Shown in pieces: positions 11,632 through 20,741 of a stretch of 64,000 bases of DNA. The stretch is from assembly GCF_024343775.1 (NCBI RefSeq), contig NZ_RJUF01000004.1, positions 1-64,000 of the forward strand, read 5' to 3'. How positions within the stretch are numbered: position 1 is the first letter of the stretch; every line of letters starts with the position of its first letter. The notes under the pieces are model-generated. The model did no database searches. It saw nothing but the letters and a program-made list of their open reading frames with translations, and was not told the origin of the DNA. Source of the DNA: Lacihabitans soyangensis. GTDB lineage: Bacteria; Bacteroidota; Bacteroidia; Cytophagales; Spirosomataceae. Made by a program: the position numbers and the translations under genes.

Positions 11632-12090
11632 TTAACTTTCGTTATTGAGTAAAAGGAGTTCTGCCAAAATCTTATCAGAAATTCTGAAATTTGTTTCTGT
11701 AATTTTATCAAGTATTGGTTTGATGGCTTCAATTACTCCCAATTCTTTGGCTTTATGAATAATCCCAAGCGAACCAGTAATTTTCAAACCCAATTGTTTT
11801 GCCAATTTTCTACCTTTTAATTCATCCAATATCACTAATGGATTGTCCAATTCTTTGGCTAAAGCTATGGCACTTGCCTCTCCTAAATCAACCTGGGTTG
11901 ATAAAAAATCCAAATACTTTTGGTCTTTTACAGAAACGATTTTAATCCAAGAAGGCAAAGTTTCGTTAAATTCAGAAGCTATTTGAGGAGTGGTAATAAC
12001 ATTTTGATAAACCCTGAGCAGAATTTCTAGGTGGTCTATTTTATGAAACAATATCAAGCAACTTGTATCCGAAATTACAATATTAGGCAT
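11632..12090 (-). CDS. DUF3368/PIN-like toxin of a UPF0175 TA module
   Basis: A 152-aa protein of the PIN-like DUF3368 type. The N-terminus IVISDTSCLILF carries the first PIN acid (Asp near residue 7) with the following Thr/Ser; LGEASAIALAKELDNPLVILDE (about 71-92) carries the second acidic cluster and a further Asp, followed by RKLAKQLGLKITGSLG. PIN-domain toxins are Mg-dependent RNases. The gene overlaps the upstream UPF0175 gene by 8 bases on the same strand, the standard antitoxin-first order. Target RNA cannot be predicted. It contains all expected acidic positions I can align by eye, so it looks intact. Confidence 0.87.
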   Translation of the reverse strand: MPNIVISDTSCLILFHKIDHLEILLRVYQNVITTPQIASEFNETLPSWIKIVSVKDQKYLDFLSTQVDLGEASAIALAKELDNPLVILDELKGRKLAKQLGLKITGSLGIIHKAKELGVIEAIKPILDKITETNFRISDKILAELLLLNNES

Positions 12091-12310
12091 TTGAAATATC
12101 TGAATACAAGTCTGTCAAGGAACTACTGAAAACAGAAACACCATATTTGCCAATAATTTCTAAAAAAGCTCCTTTCGACAAACCCACCATTTCGGCAGCT
12201 TGTCCTAACGAAAGTTTACCTTCTTCAAATAATTTGGATGCTATTATCATCGAAAAATCATACTCTTTCAAATCTAAATCATCTGGAACTTGCAAATGTA
12301 TTGTCTTCAT
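12083..12310 (-). CDS. UPF0175-family antitoxin
   Basis: A 75-aa protein starting at ATG 12310-12308 (MKTIHLQVPDDLDLKEYD); the longer ORF from 12433 extends through the der hairpin and is rejected. A short N-terminal strand precedes helices with the family pattern ASKLFEEGKLSLGQAAEMVGLSKGAFLEII, resembling a helix-turn-helix DNA-binding unit (about 24-53). The C-terminal tail (VSVFSSSLTDLYSDI) would contact the toxin. It probably neutralises the DUF3368 protein and autoregulates the pair. A minus-strand -7-like box TATATTTG lies at 12336-12329, about 20 bases before the start. Confidence 0.87.
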   Translation of the reverse strand: MKTIHLQVPDDLDLKEYDFSMIIASKLFEEGKLSLGQAAEMVGLSKGAFLEIIGKYGVSVFSSSLTDLYSDISNA

Positions 12311-12404
12311 TTTTAGTGCTTCTTTTAACAAATATACATTTTTTCTAAAAGAAAAATAATACTTCGTTCTTAAAACTGTCTCCTTATAAACACAAATCGG
12401 TCTT

Positions 12405-12437
12405 AATAGTGAATGGGGCGATGCCCCATTCACTATT
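12405..12437. repeat. Perfect 15-bp-stem hairpin containing the der stop codon
   Basis: AATAGTGAATGGGGC (12405-12419), loop GAT, then the exact complement GCCCCATTCACTATT (12423-12437). The plus strand continues with a T-run, so it is a textbook terminator for plus-strand transcription, yet no plus-strand gene precedes it. On the minus strand it contains the TAG of der and separates der from the antitoxin gene. Confidence 0.85.
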
Positions 12438-13746
12438 TTTTTCGGAAAAACGTCGTAATCACCACACCTTCAAACCCAAAGTGCTCTCTGATTTTGTTCT
12501 GCAAAAATCTTTGGTAAGACTCCATCACATATTGAGGCAAATTACAGAAGAACACAAAAGTTGGCGATGGCGTAGGGACCTGAACGATATATTTGATTCT
12601 AACCATTTTGCCTTTCATAGATGGCGGTGGGTAGTTTTCAATAATCGGCAGTAGAATATCGTTCAATTTAGAAGTAGAAATCTGTGATTTTCTAACTTCA
12701 TAAACTTCCATTGCCTTTTCTATAACTTGGAAAATACGTTGCTTCTCCAATGCCGAAGCAAAAATGATAGGCATGTAATTCATTGGAGCCAATCTTTCCA
12801 AAATCTCCTTTTTCATAGTATCAGCCGTTTTAGAGTCTTTCTCCAAAGCGTCCCATTTGTTTACCATGATTACAATGCCTTTTTTGGCATTGTGAGCCTG
12901 AGCGATAATGCTCACATCTTGAGATTCAAGTCCTAGAGTTGCATCCAAAAGGACTATACATACGTCAGAATTATCAAGAGCCTTGATAGATCTCAAAACC
13001 GAATAAAACTCTATATCCTCATTTACCTTGGCTTTTTTTCTGATACCAGCGGTGTCCGTCAAGATAAAATCTTTGCCGAACATTTTGTAATGTGTATCTA
13101 TGGCGTCTCTTGTTGTACCTGCAATGTCTGTTACTATGCTTCTTTCCTTGCCTAACAAAGCATTCAGAAACGACGATTTACCAACATTCGGACGACCTAA
13201 AATTGAAATTCTCGGAATTCCCTCATTTGGATTCTCCACTTGGTCAAACTCGAGGTGTTTCACAACTTCATCCAGCAATTCGCCAGTTCCTGAGCCATCA
13301 GCCGCTGAAATAGGGTAAACTTCACTCGCCAAACCCATTCCATAAAACTCTGAGGCAACCAAATTGGCTCTTTCAAAAGTCTCTGCTTTGTTGGCAACCA
13401 CAAAAATTGGCTTTTTAGATCTACGCAAAACGTTGGCAAATTCTTCGTCCAACTCTGTCAAACCTTGCTTGGTATCAACCACAAAAAGAATGACGGTGGC
13501 TTCGTCCAATGCCAATTCCACCTGGCTTCTGATGGCTTCCTCAAAAGTATCGTCCGAACCAACCACATAACCACCCGTATCTATAACCGTAAAATTCTTT
13601 TGTAACCAAAATGCATTTCCGTAGTGCCTATCACGCGTTACGCCAGATTGGTTATCTGTAATAGCCACACGGTCCTCAATCAGTCTGTTAAATAATGTAG
13701 ATTTACCTACGTTTGGTCTACCTACTATAGCTACTATATTCGACAT
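12433..13746 (-). CDS. der: Ribosome biogenesis GTPase Der (EngA)
   Basis: A 437-aa double-GTPase needed for 50S subunit maturation. Two G domains in tandem: the first with P-loop GRPNVGKST (about 8-16) and DTGG, the second with GRPNVGKSS (about 183-191) and DTAG, each followed by an NKxD-type motif (VANKAE, MVNKWD). The C-terminal KH-like domain includes PPPSMKGKMVRIKYIVQVPTP-type sequence near 380. Length and order are normal for the family. The stop codon falls in a perfect hairpin. A minus-strand -7-like box TATCTTTG lies at 13819-13812, implying a leader of about 60 bases. Confidence 0.97.
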   Translation of the reverse strand: MSNIVAIVGRPNVGKSTLFNRLIEDRVAITDNQSGVTRDRHYGNAFWLQKNFTVIDTGGYVVGSDDTFEEAIRSQVELALDEATVILFVVDTKQGLTELDEEFANVLRRSKKPIFVVANKAETFERANLVASEFYGMGLASEVYPISAADGSGTGELLDEVVKHLEFDQVENPNEGIPRISILGRPNVGKSSFLNALLGKERSIVTDIAGTTRDAIDTHYKMFGKDFILTDTAGIRKKAKVNEDIEFYSVLRSIKALDNSDVCIVLLDATLGLESQDVSIIAQAHNAKKGIVIMVNKWDALEKDSKTADTMKKEILERLAPMNYMPIIFASALEKQRIFQVIEKAMEVYEVRKSQISTSKLNDILLPIIENYPPPSMKGKMVRIKYIVQVPTPSPTFVFFCNLPQYVMESYQRFLQNKIREHFGFEGVVITTFFRKK

Positions 13747-13881
13747 ATCACTTATCCCTCTTTTTATATAAATATTTTATTATCAACCCTTTCGAAAAAT
13801 CAAAAAGGATGCAAAGATAGGAAAAAATAAGGAAATTGGAAAGAAAAACCAGTAAAGTAGACTCAAAAATACAATTGACTT

Positions 13882-13914
13882 ACAGTTGACAACTTTTAAA
13901 AAGTTGTCAACTGT
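13882..13914 (-). terminator. Perfect palindromic terminator of the 18158-13925 operon
   Basis: ACAGTTGACAACTTTT (13882-13897) and its exact complement AAAAGTTGTCAACTGT (13899-13914) surround a single base. It lies 11 bases beyond the stop codon of the EamA gene, with short T/A runs in the stem centre. Likely a bidirectional terminator, though no long T-tail follows on the minus strand. Confidence 0.7.
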
Positions 13915-13924
13915 TTATACTGCT

Positions 13925-14827
13925 TCATGTTCCAAAAACCTCCTGCCAAGAAATCATCAAAATGGCAATAACGGCCAAGAAAAGCCCCAGTTTATTCAGA
14001 ATAGATACTTTTTCTTTGAAAAACAAAATGGCCACAAATGCAGAGACCAAAATAACACCCATGTTATAGATAGGATAAACAAAGGCTCCGCTATTCCCAA
14101 AATATCCTAAAGTTAGAATCAAAAAGTAAAAAGACAGAAAATTAGGTACACCTAGTGTTAAAGCCGCCACAATATTCTTTACTTCAATCTTTTCAGACCC
14201 ATTTAAGATTTTGAATATCAACAGAATAAGACCCGAAACAGCCGCTCCCAAAACCATCACTAGGGTAACAGGAACAACTTTAGAGGCATCTGCAATGTAA
14301 GTGATATTTAGGTAATTAATAGCCGTATTTGTTATGCCGTACATCAAAAAAACCGCTAATGCCAAACCTCCCTGAAGCCAAAAGTTTGCTTTAGTACTTG
14401 TATCAGACCCCGACTTAAAAGTAGCAATAGCAACCGAAACCACAGCGAGCACAAGACCGAGATAGTTTATCCAGTCAAAAGTTTTACCTCCGCTACCAAA
14501 AACCAATAAACTGAACAATACTGGAATAACCAAAGACACATTATTGGCCATAGAAGTGATGGTCATCCCTATTTTTTGCGTAGCCAAACCACTTAAAATG
14601 AAGGTAATAATAAACCCAACTCCCAAAGCAAGGCTGTACAAGGTCCAATTCTGCGAAAGATCCAATTGAAAACGTTGACCTTCGGGCATAAGCAGCATTC
14701 CGGTAAGAAAACAAACAGGATAATTGAATGCTATAGCCTGAAAAGTGCTGATGTTGAACTTTGGGAAAATCCGGAAATTTACCAGCAAAAGAACTGAAAA
14801 TAAAATACTTAGAGCTAAGTATAGCAT
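13925..14827 (-). CDS. EamA/DMT-family membrane transporter
   Basis: A 300-aa inner-membrane protein with about ten hydrophobic spans arranged as two five-helix halves, the drug/metabolite transporter (EamA) architecture. Visible spans include LYLALSILFSVLLLVNF at the N-terminus, LYSLALGVGFIITFILSGLA near 65, and LGLFLAVIAILMISW at the C-terminus; a conserved-looking TITSMANNVSLVIPVLFSLL segment near 90-110 matches the end-of-half signature. Substrate unknown; relatives export amino acids, nucleosides or other metabolites. The start is 3 bases after the stop of the large lipoprotein gene, so it is the last gene of a three-gene operon. Confidence 0.87.
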   Translation of the reverse strand: MLYLALSILFSVLLLVNFRIFPKFNISTFQAIAFNYPVCFLTGMLLMPEGQRFQLDLSQNWTLYSLALGVGFIITFILSGLATQKIGMTITSMANNVSLVIPVLFSLLVFGSGGKTFDWINYLGLVLAVVSVAIATFKSGSDTSTKANFWLQGGLALAVFLMYGITNTAINYLNITYIADASKVVPVTLVMVLGAAVSGLILLIFKILNGSEKIEVKNIVAALTLGVPNFLSFYFLILTLGYFGNSGAFVYPIYNMGVILVSAFVAILFFKEKVSILNKLGLFLAVIAILMISWQEVFGT

Positions 14828-14830
14828 AGC

Positions 14831-17209
14831 CTATTTTACAAAATTAGCGTAAGTTTCACATTCCTTCAATACCATCTTTTGGTATTGGGTATTTTGATAG
14901 TTCTTCCATAATTTGGTGAAGAAAGTCCTATATTTCGACAATTCGTTTTTCCGCATTTTTGCGGTATATGCTTCTTCCTGAGCATAATCATCTGGTCTCT
15001 CAGAATAATATTTCACCAAATACTGATTACGCTCGCAAAGTGCACCAGCATAGCATATTTTAGCCGCCAACTCTTGATCGGGATTAAGTGACAGTGCCTT
15101 TTCGAACGCTTTTCTGGCATTTTCGGTAAGATAATAATCTGATTTTAATTCATCATTGTACTCAAGGTCTGCTGTACTTTTGCCTCTCTGAGTCAATATC
15201 CAAGCTTGTCCGTAATAACTTAAATTATAAAGCCCTTTACCGTAGGCATACCAGTCTTCGGCTGAAGCATTTTTTTCGTTCGTCTTGGACTGTAAAACGG
15301 CTAATTTACTTACAAAATTTGCAGGCGAATCCTTCGCTCCAGATTTACCCAAATTGATGTCTTTGGCTTCACTCTCAAAATTTTCGGCAAAACCATTATT
15401 TGTAAGGGTCAAAGCCGAAACAAGTTTAAAAGTTTCTGATGCTTCAGCAAATTTTGACTCAGAAACTTGTCTTCTTGCCAGGGCTAGATTCATGTAATCG
15501 GCCTTTAAATTCGACAATTCAACGAGCTTTTTATCATTGATATTCAAGTCTTTCCTTTGAGTAAAAGCTATTAGTTTATGTAAGAAATCTGACGAACAAG
15601 TGTCTATCAAAGCATTGTGACTAGTACCTATTTGGTAGCCTCTGCCATAATCAGAACCCGCCGCGATACTGTGGGCCAGAAATGCCTTTACAAAATTTCC
15701 TTGCCCACCATCCGAATTGTCGGAACATGACCAAAACCACCCACTTTTCTTTTCTTCCTTCTTATTGGCGTAATAATTGGCCAATGTTTCGCTCATTTTC
15801 AGAAGCAAATTGTTGTCCCGATATTCTTTGATGTCAGTAAAAGTGGCCACCGTATTTAACATTTTTTGTTCTGTCTCATCTGATGGTGTTTTATCCATCA
15901 TCTCGAAAGTCAGAAATTCTACTTGTTTTTTCAGTTTGACATTTCCATCTACTTTTATGCCATTTAATAATTCCAATGCAGCTTTTGTATCGTTTTTGAG
16001 GTATAGGAAATAGGCAGTCGATAAGTTCCAAAACTGAGGATTTTCCACTTTTCCGTCAGAATTCAATTTTTCAGAAAAACTCAATAATTTTTCTAAATAT
16101 GTCTCTCCTTTTTTGTGTTGAGCATCTACTTTGGCTTGGTCAATTTTATAATTATCGTCGTAATAATTATCGAAATTACCGTAAACTGTGCTGTTTTTGT
16201 CAGCAAAAAATGCCATTTCGTTCTTGTTAATTTCCCTTGCAAAAACCAACTCCAATAGTGGGTGTTTAGGGTTCAAATCATACATTTTCTCCAAAATATC
16301 AAGTCCGTCCTGAAGTGGCTGGATTCCTTGCAAAGCCAAGACATTGGCTTTTTCGTCACTTTTTGTAGCGAGTTCAAGTGCTTCTGCAAAAAACTTAGGA
16401 CTGATTCTTCTGACACTTAAATCTGCTGCAAATCGTCTAGATGGACAATCATTAAAAATCTGAGCAAACATTAATACTGCATTGGCGGTATCTCCAAGAG
16501 CCATAGTAGCTCCCGCTACCCTACTTTTGGACCAATCAGAAATGAACGACTTTCGTTTTATGGCACGAGAATTTGCCGCAAAATCGTCAATAAGGTTATC
16601 GTACCTACCGATTTCGCCACTTAGCTTAATTTTCTGAAAAAGATATCTTTCCTTAAGAAAATCATTTGTGGCATTTTGAAATCCTTCTTGAGCCTTATCT
16701 ATCAAATCCACAATTTTGAGCGAATCGACTGCAGGACTCTCCTCCCAATAGTTTACTTTGTGCGGAGTGGCGGACTCAGCCTCTTGAGCAAAAACTAGAT
16801 AAAGACTCGCTGCTTTGTCAAAAGCCGAAACTTTTGAAGCCAACAAACTCAATTTGGACTCGCCGTACAAGGAAGACTTTATCACATCTCTAGAAACCTT
16901 AGACTTTAAATAAGCCTCCCATGCATTTATATTTTCCGTTTCCTCTACTGTTTCGGCTTTTGGAGACGGAGTTTCTTCATAAAAATACGGCTCTTCGTTC
17001 AGGAAATTCGTCGAAAAATAATAGGGCTTGGTAGCCGCTGGCGTATTGGCGTTTTCGGGGTAAAACAACGAAAAGTACTCCGCATAGTCCATAGGACTTG
17101 GGCCACACGCCAATATGGCCATAACCGCACACAACTTTATGAAAGTTTTAGTTTTGGGAGAAAAACTCCTGAATTTGTTCTTGATTGTAGTTTGAAAGGC
17201 TTTTTTCAT
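14831..17209 (-). CDS. Large lipoprotein of unknown function (792 aa)
   Basis: I do not recognise a characterised family. An N-terminal lipoprotein signal is visible: KTKTFIKLCAVMAILAC with a LAC lipobox (Cys at about residue 35) followed by GPSPMDYAEYFSLFYPEN. The basic pre-region is unusually long (about 22 residues), but starting at the internal Met30 would destroy the signal, so the first ATG is kept. It overlaps the upstream gene by 62 bases. The rest is largely helical with TPR-like hairpins, for example AIAFAEALELATKSDEKANVLALQ-type helices near 270-290 and LSLNPDQELAAKICYAGALCER near 730. It probably works on the periplasmic face of the outer membrane together with its operon partners. 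Confidence 0.75.
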   Translation of the reverse strand: MKKAFQTTIKNKFRSFSPKTKTFIKLCAVMAILACGPSPMDYAEYFSLFYPENANTPAATKPYYFSTNFLNEEPYFYEETPSPKAETVEETENINAWEAYLKSKVSRDVIKSSLYGESKLSLLASKVSAFDKAASLYLVFAQEAESATPHKVNYWEESPAVDSLKIVDLIDKAQEGFQNATNDFLKERYLFQKIKLSGEIGRYDNLIDDFAANSRAIKRKSFISDWSKSRVAGATMALGDTANAVLMFAQIFNDCPSRRFAADLSVRRISPKFFAEALELATKSDEKANVLALQGIQPLQDGLDILEKMYDLNPKHPLLELVFAREINKNEMAFFADKNSTVYGNFDNYYDDNYKIDQAKVDAQHKKGETYLEKLLSFSEKLNSDGKVENPQFWNLSTAYFLYLKNDTKAALELLNGIKVDGNVKLKKQVEFLTFEMMDKTPSDETEQKMLNTVATFTDIKEYRDNNLLLKMSETLANYYANKKEEKKSGWFWSCSDNSDGGQGNFVKAFLAHSIAAGSDYGRGYQIGTSHNALIDTCSSDFLHKLIAFTQRKDLNINDKKLVELSNLKADYMNLALARRQVSESKFAEASETFKLVSALTLTNNGFAENFESEAKDINLGKSGAKDSPANFVSKLAVLQSKTNEKNASAEDWYAYGKGLYNLSYYGQAWILTQRGKSTADLEYNDELKSDYYLTENARKAFEKALSLNPDQELAAKICYAGALCERNQYLVKYYSERPDDYAQEEAYTAKMRKNELSKYRTFFTKLWKNYQNTQYQKMVLKECETYANFVK

Positions 17210-18158
17210 CTAAATGATAAAGAATTATGGTAGTTTTTAAGGCTTTTGTTTTTTGTAAAATTCTATTTTTGGTCTTGTTTACTTTTTCAAATTCTGAGTT
17301 CTCAAATTTCAAAATATCGTTTTCTCGAAACGAAATATTCTTGAACTGAACGTCCTTTTTACACAAAAATTGATTTTCTGTTTTTGTTTTTTCAAAGGCC
17401 GCATTGGCTTCAATTTCACTAAGCGTACAATTTTTTATAAAAGTATAGAAAATCCCATTTCTATAAGCCAAAACTTGTTGAAAAAACGTAAAAGCAAAAT
17501 TCAAATTTAACGGATATTCAGAGAGATTGTCCAAATAATTCATAGTTGTTTGGGCATCAAAAAGCGAATTTTCCAAGGTCAACTTTCGCCAATCTCCTGT
17601 ATTATAAAGCATCAAAACACCTTCATCAACAGGTGGAATACCCGTTTTTTTATAAAATTTAATTTGGTGCAAACGAATGGTGGCTGAGTACTTCATATCT
17701 TTTGGCGACTTCTCATTTATTTTCTCCAAAAAGAAAAAATACTTGCTTTTTGTGCTTAGGGTCCAGTCGCAATCGAACTGAATTTCTTTATGTGCATTTG
17801 ATATTTTATTGATTTGGCCCAATACATTGGCCGATAAATCCTCGATTTGCTCAAACTTCAACCTTTCAAAAACGCGGTTGGTTATAAAGACAGTGGGTAC
17901 AATTTCTTGATTTACCTTAGTTCTGATAGAAACAATTCCTTTCGGAATAGCCTCATTTTGAAGCATATCCACATCAAAAAATCTCAAATAAATCTTTTCG
18001 ATTTTATTCTCTTCCAAAAACGCCTTTTCTTTTTTACTTAACTCAAAATTAGTCTTCCAAAAATACACTGCTCGGCCTAAATCTTTAGGCCTATTTTCAG
18101 ATTTGCAACCACCTAAAAATAAGACTAAAAATAAGAAATAAATCCTTGTCAAATTCAT
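17148..18158 (-). CDS. Lipoprotein, predicted TIM-barrel-like, unknown function (336 aa)
   Basis: The signal peptide MNLTRIYFLFLVLFLGGC has a lipobox LGGC (Cys18). The mature part contains motifs I associate with a widespread uncharacterised Bacteroidota family: VYFWKTNFELSKKEKAFL, KIYLRFFDVD, VPTVFITN, IQFDCDWTLSTKSKYFFF, ATIRLHQIKFYKKTGIPP, VDEGVLMLYNTGDW. The succession of strand-ending charged residues is consistent with a TIM barrel related to glycoside hydrolases, with acidic candidates in FFDVD and DCDW; catalytic activity is inference. It overlaps the large lipoprotein gene by 62 bases and heads a three-gene operon. A candidate promoter lies about 65-95 bases upstream. Confidence 0.8.
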   Translation of the reverse strand: MNLTRIYFLFLVLFLGGCKSENRPKDLGRAVYFWKTNFELSKKEKAFLEENKIEKIYLRFFDVDMLQNEAIPKGIVSIRTKVNQEIVPTVFITNRVFERLKFEQIEDLSANVLGQINKISNAHKEIQFDCDWTLSTKSKYFFFLEKINEKSPKDMKYSATIRLHQIKFYKKTGIPPVDEGVLMLYNTGDWRKLTLENSLFDAQTTMNYLDNLSEYPLNLNFAFTFFQQVLAYRNGIFYTFIKNCTLSEIEANAAFEKTKTENQFLCKKDVQFKNISFRENDILKFENSEFEKVNKTKNRILQKTKALKTTIILYHLDEKSLSNYNQEQIQEFFSQN

Positions 18159-18220
18159 AAAATCCGTGTTCTATCAAAATTCAGGTCAATGCACAAAAGC
18201 CTTAAATTCTGTGTTCACCA

Positions 18221-18255
18221 CAAACCTAAATCAAAAAAATAAGGTTTATCCAAAA
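18221..18255 (-). promoter_or_regulatory. Candidate Bacteroidota promoter of the lipoprotein operon
   Basis: On the minus strand TTTTG (18255-18251) is followed after 22 bases by TAGGTTTG (18228-18221), matching the TTTG / TAnnTTTG primary sigma consensus of this phylum. It would give a leader of about 55 bases before the ATG at 18158. Confidence 0.4.
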
Positions 18256-18264
18256 TTCCTTTTC

Positions 18265-18272
18265 TAATTTTG
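18265..18272 (+). promoter_or_regulatory. Candidate -7 box of the ABC exporter gene
   Basis: TAATTTTG fits TAnnTTTG and lies 6 bases before the ATG at 18279, implying an almost leaderless mRNA. No good -33 box is seen, so support is weak. Confidence 0.25.
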
Positions 18273-18278
18273 CCAACA

Positions 18279-20105
18279 ATGAATATATATTTCAAAATAT
18301 TAAAATACGCAGGTAACCTTCAAAACTTTGTAGTTCCTTTTGTATTTACTTCTCTTATCGCTGGAGTTTTTGGCGTATTAAACTTGGTTTTACTAAAGCC
18401 TTTGCTTGATGTACTTTTTGGACAAGTAGCTGATAGTGTGATTGTTGAAATGGCCAACAAAAAACCAGAAACCTATCAAATATTAGACTGGTATCAGAAA
18501 TATTTTACTGAAGCTATACTTTCAGATGGCAAACTCGGTGGGTTAAAATTTGTCTGTTTTACCATTTTAGGCGTCAGTTTTGTGGCCAATGTTTCAAGAT
18601 ATTTTAGTTTGAGATTATTGGAGAGATTCAAAACCAACATGGTGGCCAACCTTCGTCAGGCGGTTTTTGAGCATACTTTACAGTTGCATTTGAGTTTCTA
18701 TTCAAATGAAAAAAAAGGCGAACTCATCTCTAGAATTACAACAGATGTACAGGAAGTTGAAAATTCGATAGCCAATTCCTTCTCAGCGGCCATCAAAGAA
18801 TTCATACTTTTGGCGGCTTACTTGGTGGCTCTTTTTTATATTTCATGGAAACTCACACTGTTTTCATTGATTGTAATTCCTGTTACTGGGGCCTTTCTTG
18901 GAATTGTACTGAAAAGAATGCGACACAATGCTGGCGACAGTCAACAACGGCTGAGCAACCTCATCAGTATAATGGACGAAGCTTTCGGCAGTATGCGTGT
19001 AGTGAAGGCATTTCTGGCCGAAGCCTTTATTTCCAAAAGGTTTTTTGAACAAAACACAGCTTACCGAAAGTCGATGTTTGCCTATGCCTCAAAAAGAGAA
19101 ATGGCCAATCCATTTTCAGAATTCATCGGCATAAGCATGGTGGCCTCCTTACTTTATTTTGGTGGCAGCCTGATTTTAGAAGGAACTGGGTCTCTTACTG
19201 CCTCAACATTTATATCTTATATCGCCATATTTTCTCAAGTCATCAGACCAGCCAAAGAAATATCTCAAGCCATCAGCACCGCTCAAAGGGGTTTAGCATC
19301 CGGCCAAAGAGTAATGGAATTGATTAACCAAAAGGCGGATATTGTGGATGATAAAGATGCTACGGTTTTAGAGAGTTTTAACTCCAAAATAGAATTCAAA
19401 AATGTTGGATTTTCTTATATTGAAGACAAAGAAATACTGAAAAATATCAGTCTAGAAATAAAGAAAGGGCAAACTGTGGCCTTAGTTGGGGCTTCAGGAG
19501 GAGGTAAATCTACCATAGCCGACTTGTTGATAAGGTTTTATGACGTGCAAAAAGGCGAGATTTTGTTAGACACCCAAAATATCAAAAATATAAGCCAGAA
19601 AAGTCTAAGAGAACATATTGGAGTGGTTACCCAAGAACCAATGCTTTACAATGATTCCATTTTAAATAACATAGCCTTTGGAAGAAATGCGGGTTTGGAA
19701 GAAATTCAGAACGCCGCTAAAATTGCAAACGCACACGAATTTATCATGAATCAACCCGAAGGATACGAAACCAATATCGGCGACCGAGGTACAAAACTTT
19801 CGGGCGGGCAAAAACAACGTCTTTCGATAGCCCGAGCCATTTTGCAAAATCCGCCCATACTAATCCTAGATGAAGCTACCTCAGCCCTCGATACAGAATC
19901 CGAAAAACTGGTACAAGATGCCTTGGCGAATTTGATGAAAAACAGAACTTCGTTAGTGATAGCTCACAGGCTCAGTACCATTCAAAATGCGGACAAAATC
20001 TATGTTATTCAAAACGGTGAAGTGGTGGAGCAAGGCACGCATCAAAGTCTTTTCGATGAAGAAAACGGATATTATCGAAAATTGGTGACTATGCAGGGGT
20101 TGTGA
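18279..20105 (+). CDS. ABC transporter, fused permease/ATPase (MsbA-like)
   Basis: A 608-aa half-transporter that would dimerise to export lipids, glycolipids or drugs across the inner membrane. Residues about 1-330 form the six-helix type I exporter domain (spans around VPFVFTSLIAGVFGVLNLVLL, FILLAAYLVALFYI, FSLIVIPVTGAFLGIV), and the C-terminal ATPase has Walker A GASGGGKST, the Q-loop VTQEPMLYNDS, signature LSGGQ, Walker B ILILDEATSALD and the switch His in VIAHRLSTI. The ATG at 18279 is chosen over a TTG nine bases upstream. It diverges from the lipoprotein operon and is convergent with the HepT gene, with two bases between stops. MsbA is the best analogy, but the substrate is not determined. 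Confidence 0.9.
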   Translation: MNIYFKILKYAGNLQNFVVPFVFTSLIAGVFGVLNLVLLKPLLDVLFGQVADSVIVEMANKKPETYQILDWYQKYFTEAILSDGKLGGLKFVCFTILGVSFVANVSRYFSLRLLERFKTNMVANLRQAVFEHTLQLHLSFYSNEKKGELISRITTDVQEVENSIANSFSAAIKEFILLAAYLVALFYISWKLTLFSLIVIPVTGAFLGIVLKRMRHNAGDSQQRLSNLISIMDEAFGSMRVVKAFLAEAFISKRFFEQNTAYRKSMFAYASKREMANPFSEFIGISMVASLLYFGGSLILEGTGSLTASTFISYIAIFSQVIRPAKEISQAISTAQRGLASGQRVMELINQKADIVDDKDATVLESFNSKIEFKNVGFSYIEDKEILKNISLEIKKGQTVALVGASGGGKSTIADLLIRFYDVQKGEILLDTQNIKNISQKSLREHIGVVTQEPMLYNDSILNNIAFGRNAGLEEIQNAAKIANAHEFIMNQPEGYETNIGDRGTKLSGGQKQRLSIARAILQNPPILILDEATSALDTESEKLVQDALANLMKNRTSLVIAHRLSTIQNADKIYVIQNGEVVEQGTHQSLFDEENGYYRKLVTMQGL

Positions 20106-20107
20106 GA

Positions 20108-20449
20108 TTAGTTTTCTCCAACAAGTTTCTCCACATCTATTTTTAAAATAGGCAAATATTTAGTAACAATACTCCAAATCAGAACATCTGAAACTGAATC
20201 GTAACCATGAATTATGCGATTTCGAGCATCAACTATATTTCTAGAATAAGATATTTCTATTTCATCATTTGCCTTTAAAATCCTATTCATTGCCTCCCCT
20301 ATGATCTCAATATTTCTTTCTGTGGCTCTTTTTGTTCTGACGTCCTTGAGGTAAAAGTCAAAATTAGATTCTATATCAATCATGAAACCATCAATCTCCA
20401 TGATTGCATTCAAAATGTCATACAGCCAAGTTTTTATGTCATCTTGCAT
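20108..20449 (-). CDS. hepT: HepT-like HEPN toxin (DUF86)
   Basis: A 113-aa HEPN-domain protein with the complete RX4HXY active-site motif: Arg76, His81 and Tyr83 in RNRIIHGY. HEPN proteins of this class are RNases or tRNA-targeting toxins, and the motif tyrosine is the known site of AMP addition by the partner MntA in studied systems. The helical body (WLYDILNAIMEIDGFM, RNIEIIGEAMNRIL) is normal length. It overlaps the MntA gene by 11 bases and follows it, the usual order for this module. Confidence 0.92.
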   Translation of the reverse strand: MQDDIKTWLYDILNAIMEIDGFMIDIESNFDFYLKDVRTKRATERNIEIIGEAMNRILKANDEIEISYSRNIVDARNRIIHGYDSVSDVLIWSIVTKYLPILKIDVEKLVGEN

Positions 20450-20741
20450 AAATTAGCTTTTTTTGAATTTCTAAGGTTTTCCGAAAAAAAGGGTTTTTTA
20501 TTCCTTTTTCCTCCAACAAATCGATTGGCCTATTAAACAAATCTTGCAGAGAAAACTTCAAATTAAAATAATTATCTGCATACTCTTGGAAGTTCAAATT
20601 TTCAAAATCAACAACTAAATCTACATCACTTGCATCTTTAAAATTCTCTGTTAAAATAGAACCAAAAGCATAGAGAGTCTTGACTTTGTGATTGACACAA
20701 AGCTGCTGTATATCAAGAGAATATTCATCTAATGCACTCAT
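20439..20741 (-). CDS. mntA: MntA-like minimal nucleotidyltransferase antitoxin
   Basis: A 100-aa MNT-domain protein. The nucleotidyltransferase signature GSX10DXD is intact: Gly27-Ser28 then Asp39 and Asp41 (SDVDLVVDF). In characterised HepT/MntA pairs the MNT protein neutralises the toxin by adding AMP residues to the HEPN tyrosine. The C-terminal part (FSLQDLFNRPIDLLEEKGI, FFRKTLE) is typical. It lies 34 bases downstream of the DUF423 gene on the same strand and may be read through from it, or have its own promoter. Confidence 0.92.
   Translation of the reverse strand: MSALDEYSLDIQQLCVNHKVKTLYAFGSILTENFKDASDVDLVVDFENLNFQEYADNYFNLKFSLQDLFNRPIDLLEEKGIKNPFFRKTLEIQKKLIYAR

Follow-up and report, generated by a model that had tools for sequence, protein, structure and literature searches.

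A 64,000-nt stretch of the Lacihabitans soyangensis genome (hereafter the window) contains three closely spaced genes coding for two predicted lipoproteins, here termed G1 and G2, and an EamA-family transporter. An earlier note on this DNA had read the three as one self-contained operon and as the leading candidate for an undescribed system. This raises the question of which of these genes belong together and what their products might do. The described layout was borne out, with all three open reading frames (ORFs) on the minus strand, the 62-nt overlap and the 3-nt gap (Table 1). The perfect 33-base palindrome was likewise found, consisting of two 16-nt arms and a 1-nt spacer. Sequence comparison nevertheless identifies the G1-G2 pair as the unit, not a trio with EamA.

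Table 1. Position of the features at the G1-G2 locus (numbering of the window).
Feature	Position	Strand	Description
G1	17148-18158	minus	ORF, 336 aa; predicted lipoprotein, GH18-like TIM barrel
G2	14831-17209	minus	ORF, 792 aa; predicted exported TPR-like solenoid; start inside the G1 end
G1 end/G2 start overlap	17148-17209	minus	62 nt
EamA-family transporter	13925-14827	minus	ORF, 300 aa; 3 nt between G2 and EamA
Promoter-like TTTG-N22-TAnnTTTG	18221-18254	minus	pattern and kept flank
Palindrome, 33 nt, perfect	13882-13914	none	after EamA; 16-nt arms, 1-nt spacer

The locus and its transporter gene

Homologues of G1 and G2 are present throughout the phylum, showing that both are real genes. 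The nearest named G1 records come from Lacihabitans (L044 and L045, 90% and 80% identity) and from a MAG labelled Leadbetterella (L046, 77%). From their sequences, we take the flanking genes to be Der and an ABC transporter. For the proposed promoter, the pattern alone is not significant (TTTG-N22-TAnnTTTG was observed four times in the window versus 4.92 expected); it is favoured by the conservation of the region around it in other loci of the genus. On visual comparison, TTTAGGTTTG with its flank was recognized in L044, L045 and L046, the TTTG half reading TCTG in L044. The promoter-like element is located directly ahead of EamA in G008, a genome of the same genus that lacks the pair (67/82 identities), which makes joint transcription of G1, G2 and EamA in the window probable. 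The palindrome folds into a hairpin that was better than 200 of 200 shuffles (z -3.96), and a T-run is absent after it. An exact copy is also present in G008 (locus L186), and no further one was found in 290 loci beyond G008 and the window's own genome.

A second hairpin with 15 pairs, followed by a T-run on the plus strand, is located at 12405-12437 and spans the end of Der and the start of a small ORF. The latter is one of two beside Der (11632-12433, minus strand) that presumably encode a PIN-domain toxin and a UPF0175-type antitoxin, the hairpin reaching into the UPF0175-like one. Two further small ORFs (20108-20741, minus strand) we take to resemble a HEPN/MNT (HepT/MntA) toxin-antitoxin pair, and one end of L291 carries an ORF related to the MNT one. 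Rfam searches over 12000-20500 and a tRNA scan yielded no match. A defence system was rejected, as PADLOC gave no match for five proteins at E<=0.1, and a search for plasmid carriage gave no match either.

The earlier note had counted the transporter as part of the system, yet by the test of co-occurrence that it had set itself, EamA does not track the pair. It is present in 31 of 39 relatives, including the same-genus genomes G007, G008 and G009, where the gene order is Der-EamA-ABC transporter with no G1 or G2 match between these genes. In G023, which belongs to another genus, Der-EamA is found on one contig and G2-G1-ABC on another. The EamA protein of G008 is 93% identical to that of the window and thus as close as those of the pair-bearing genomes G005 (92%) and G003 (91%), making a recent joint loss of G1 and G2 in G008 the simplest reading. 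A single functional system in which EamA exports a metabolite would fit the observation that EamA follows G2 in all seven pair-bearing genomes of the genus, with a gap of up to about 80 nt (G006), and the likely shared promoter. This explanation is largely refuted by the distribution of EamA over relatives with and without the pair, and among the loci examined, many with short flanks, the transporter gene was seen beside the pair only in these seven genomes; we consider it very improbable. What stands of the three-gene operon is the gene order and probably the transcription in one genus. Thus, on sequence grounds EamA is a neighbour in this genus and not part of the G1-G2 module, with which it probably shares a promoter but not a function. 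Its position beside the pair is no ground for treating EamA as a partner.

Co-occurrence of G1 and G2

Short peptide patterns identified 137 relatives of G1, and the best 80 loci were analyzed. G2 is adjacent, that is, up to 400 nt from G1, in 67 of these 80 loci; 41 of the 67 match the window G2 at E<1e-10, and 26 were recognized via a profile generated from the window G2 and those 41. The gap counted as adjacent in L054 is 311 nt, and for L077 the count rests on a G2 piece of 157 aa where the contig ends. In L123, both parts are located within one ORF. The remaining 13 loci comprise two at contig ends and 11 without a recognized G2 neighbour. For ten of these 11, genome-wide searches detected G2 elsewhere in the genome (E below 1e-160 in all ten), and the last one, L110, contains a 732-aa ORF at the expected position of G2 that the profile did not recognize. 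Concerning the contig-end cases, G557 has G2, and G555 gave no G2 match in the 1.9 Mb examined. In L053, L060, L084, L090, L097 and L205, G1 located apart from G2 often adjoins an ORF of 462-504 aa, presumably encoding an MBL-fold RNA-processing protein.

Presence and absence were then compared genome by genome. G1 was found in 22 of 59 relatives (the window's own genome included), and all 22 have G2, which was detected by the single-protein search in 20 and by the profile, adjacent to G1, in the other two (L214, L216). The G2 of G044 is divergent and encoded on another contig than G1. In 247 Bacteroidota genomes (apparently the identical sample for the G1 and the G2 search, with the top candidates per genome scored), G1 matches were obtained in 28 genomes, 27 of them at E<1e-20, and G2 matches in 32, 26 of them at E<1e-60, counts that are not independent since many of the genomes come from one genus. 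All 26 genomes with a strong G2 match have G1, and no strong G2 was found without G1 in this sample. Six weak G2 matches (E 5.6e-7 to 5.7e-4) in genomes without G1 may reflect general TPR likeness. The lone strong G1 without G2 (G089) is partial, a 242-aa ORF of which 129 residues align with the family. Of the 26 strong-pair genomes, 24 have G1 and G2 side by side. G420 has them on two contigs, each well away from the ends; in G398, G1 lies at a contig end, and three tandem G2 copies start another contig (L208, 1-7051), the first being cut by the contig end.

Among 65 candidate pairs at other loci, which include the unrecognized L110, 60 overlap, three abut and two are apart (39 and 311 nt), with a median overlap of 38 nt, where the furthest-upstream starts were used, some of them surely too far upstream. 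The distances between G1 proteins and those between their G2 counterparts are correlated (Mantel r 0.81, n=44 loci; maximum of 2000 permutations 0.19), a correlation to which shared species history contributes too. The comparison of gene neighbourhoods across Bacteroidota, which the earlier note had proposed, therefore agrees with its expectation for the two predicted lipoproteins (67/80 loci adjacent; 26/27 genomes). The database search that it had also proposed left both window proteins below the Pfam and NCBIfam cut-offs. Clustering of the neighbours over the 80 loci revealed no conserved third gene, as no family besides the pair occurs in more than eight loci; thus, no pathway is indicated. 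Several of the neighbour clusters around G1 represent same-genus synteny. Taken together, the sequence data indicate that in the genomes examined G1 and G2 co-occur almost without exception, mostly overlapping, and are absent together. The pair is almost obligate and, as far as searches of an open-licence library go, apparently undescribed; passages of PMC12419801 present what reads as a different system.

Additional copies and an odd placement were also observed. Several genomes of genus g106, including G412 (L211, L212), contain two paralogous G1-G2 pairs, the second G2 in L212 being split over two ORFs. G036 carries a second G2-like gene in two overlapping ORFs (L217, 7083-9606), and no G1 match was obtained in 13 kb there. 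One pair (L071) comes from a MAG that bears the label Rhizobacter; the contig may belong to Bacteroidota and have been misbinned or mislabelled.

Predicted folds, the G1 cleft and location

The AlphaFold2 model of G1, based on 76 sequences, has a mean pLDDT of 95 and contains eight barrel strands and an inserted region after strand 7. At E<=0.001, Foldseek returned 52 PDB matches, with SleL (5e-10) and GH18 chitinases at the top; the best 50 of the 52 are mostly GH18-type, and the weaker ones include galactanases, a methionine synthase and PgaB. TM-scores near 0.5 point to a shared fold class rather than close kinship. A TIM-barrel model with GH18-type best matches is in line with the earlier guess of a glycan-active barrel, and the acid motifs named in its support hold up: the acids at the end of strand 4 (DCDW) are invariant, and the Asp of FFDVD is present in 75/76 members. 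Conserved residues gather near the strand ends. In the cleft, Y32, W34, E125, Q127, D129, D131, W132, T160, R162 and Y185 are invariant (76/76), and D62 and Q165 (75 each), N94 and N186 (74 each) and H164 (73) nearly so. The conserved segments are EIQFDCDW (125-132), TIRLHQ (160-165) and MxYN (183-186). Trp228 after strand 7 is kept in 72/76 members, the remaining four, among them the window protein, having Gln instead. In the model, G1 takes the form of a GH18-like barrel whose cleft hardly varies across the family.

The canonical catalytic Glu of GH18 is absent in all 76 members, none of which carries the DxxDxDxE motif, and G1 may thus be a dead enzyme. At position 133, which corresponds to the GH18 Glu in the DxDW register, 59 members have T, 15 have S and two have N, and position 131 is an invariant Asp; the Asp of MxYD is replaced by Asn in 74/76. 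A profile alignment with SleL places D131 at the position of the GH18 Glu (E 0.59, not significant), and hhalign with GH18 proteins of the relatives places T133 there and N186 at the MxYD Asp (probability 0.7%, not significant). None of the profile comparisons with GH18 was significant, and an assignment to GH18 by this route was rejected. The window G1 gave no PF00704 row at E<=1, and PF00704 is absent among the listed 25 of 27 families for the 76 members. Glutaredoxin, the Pfam family that the window G1 matches best, stays below the cut-off (19.5 versus 22.9 bits) and is sub-threshold in 3/76 members (best E 0.0012). A PDB profile search gave nothing significant for G1.

The model of G2 (56 sequences, pLDDT 83) is nearly all helix, and its PDB matches, one of them at E<=0.001 and with low TM-scores, are mostly TPR and other helical scaffolds. 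The TPR-like helices recognized earlier in the 792-aa protein were thus recovered, and the model presents G2 as a long TPR-like solenoid. The best Pfam TPR score of the window G2 is below the cut-off (16.8 versus 25.7 bits); another member reaches TPR_14 at E 7.2e-8. The PDB profile search for G2 yielded a designed protein at E 0.0085, followed by weaker matches.

There is good support for calling members of the G1 family lipoproteins (Cys18 in 74/76), but the lipobox of G2 is loose despite a Cys in 56/56 members: the -1 position is mostly A, G or S, and -3 is varied. A lipid anchor of G2 is plausible; alternatively, the invariant Cys35 may be part of a disulfide, for instance with the nearly invariant Cys784. 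Passages of PMC5080379 describe the surface lipoprotein export signal (LES) as a polar residue followed by a run of D/E just after the Cys. Residue tallies at +2 to +7 did not reveal a signal of this description in either family: G1 is net basic (mean 1.54 basic versus 0.76 acidic residues), and G2 is net acidic (1.27 acidic versus 0.13 basic) and begins with G or A. The surface location suggested by the earlier note therefore gains no support from an export signal after the Cys in either family, and from the sequences, G1 and G2 facing the periplasm is the better guess.

Possible roles and comparison with known systems

Fold, conservation and a single gene fusion lead us to tentatively propose that G1 and G2 form a two-protein, periplasm-facing module that handles envelope glycan. 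Both proteins would be exported and anchored facing the periplasm, with G2 as a scaffold that holds G1 and a further partner. The cleft of the G1 barrel would take an amino-sugar-type envelope glycan, either a peptidoglycan strand or a secreted or lipid-linked glycan, and probably process it, the D129/D131 pair standing in for the canonical Asp-x-Glu of GH18. EamA would be a neighbour with a separate function, probably under the common promoter. The fusion is found in three genomes of one genus (G432, G506 and G518), in which a multi-span membrane part precedes the DCDW motif within ORFs of 834-874 aa. For G432, the region after the membrane part matches the G1 profile at E 1.4e-110, and the next gene is G2. 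Nine hydrophobic windows were counted in the membrane part, about seven of them distinct since some overlap, together with a D-x-x-K-H-N loop. A close relative of the membrane part that stands alone is encoded in G015, where no G1 was found.

The most credible alternative, although we consider it unlikely, is that G1 is a catalytically dead GH18-like lectin that binds glycan and that G2 is the working scaffold, serving as tether or sensor. The T, S or N at position 133, never Glu, and the Asn in place of the MxYD Asp are as expected for such a protein, but the rest of the cleft is almost invariant, which would exceed the usual need of binding, and in the SleL register the invariant Asp131 occupies the Glu position, neither register being statistically supported. 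A more specific and rather doubtful version of the preferred module, hinted at by the fusion, would be an undescribed phylum-wide envelope machine in which an Asp-x-Asp GH18-like barrel is docked on a TPR scaffold and acts on nascent or lipid-linked glycan. The fusion could also mean that the pair acts on such glycans together with a GT-C-like membrane glycosyltransferase. The position of G1 behind a multi-span domain with the D-x-x-K-H-N loop would fit, but the GT-C-like resemblance is one that we presume, the membrane domain gave no Pfam match worth naming (four relatives, E<=1) and no PDB match, and the fusion is restricted to one genus, homologues in 41/119 relatives being otherwise shorter ORFs. 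This explanation is quite unlikely. A Sus-like surface unit for capture and degradation of glycans in nutrition appears less likely again. The GH18-like barrel would suit it, and a chitin locus of Flavobacterium johnsoniae is described in PMC5127042; however, clustering of the neighbours gave no family in more than eight of 80 loci, the residues after the G1 Cys are unlike the export signal described above, and the acidic stretch of G2 starts with G or A.

If the periplasmic glycan-handling module is the correct reading, an unnamed envelope pair that occurs in many Bacteroidota from the environment and the gut can be studied as a single co-inherited unit. Two unannotated families would gain a first functional handle, and one of them may be a GH18-like enzyme whose catalytic pair is changed.

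Among known proteins, SleL and GH18 chitinases (4s3j, 8hw7, 4s3k, 5jh8) share the TIM-barrel fold with G1 (Foldseek E 5e-10 to 5e-8), and GH18 chitinases have an inserted region after strand 7, where G1 has its own. G1 differs from them in lacking the catalytic Glu and a PF00704 row at E<=1, and in MxYN replacing MxYD. According to its PDB title, SleL is a spore-cortex enzyme; Bacteroidota are not known to form spores. DUF3142 (PF11340) matches the middle of the barrel weakly in 2/76 members (best E 9.7e-4) and at E 1.4e-4 in L124, itself a G1-G2 pair; it was rejected as the family of G1, since the best G1-family scores stay below the cut-off (22.5 and 22.4 versus 30 bits) and the window G1 gave no match at E<=1. 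The window EamA is an ordinary member of its transporter family (PF00892; 34.7 bits versus a cut-off of 28.2); in the loci examined, no genus but this one has it next to the pair. Exopolysaccharide export of the Pga and Alg type, for which a synthase or porin encoded nearby would be expected, may differ from G1-G2 in its gene context, clustering of the neighbours having given no family in more than eight of 80 G1-G2 loci, and PgaA differs from the all-helical model of G2, which has no porin barrel and matches the TPR part of PgaA at chance level (E 0.22). The likeness lies in the combination of parts: in PgaA/PgaB and AlgK-type systems, an envelope TPR protein has a GH-like barrel partner, as proposed for G1-G2, and PgaB is itself a weaker fold match of G1 (4f9j, E 4.8e-4).
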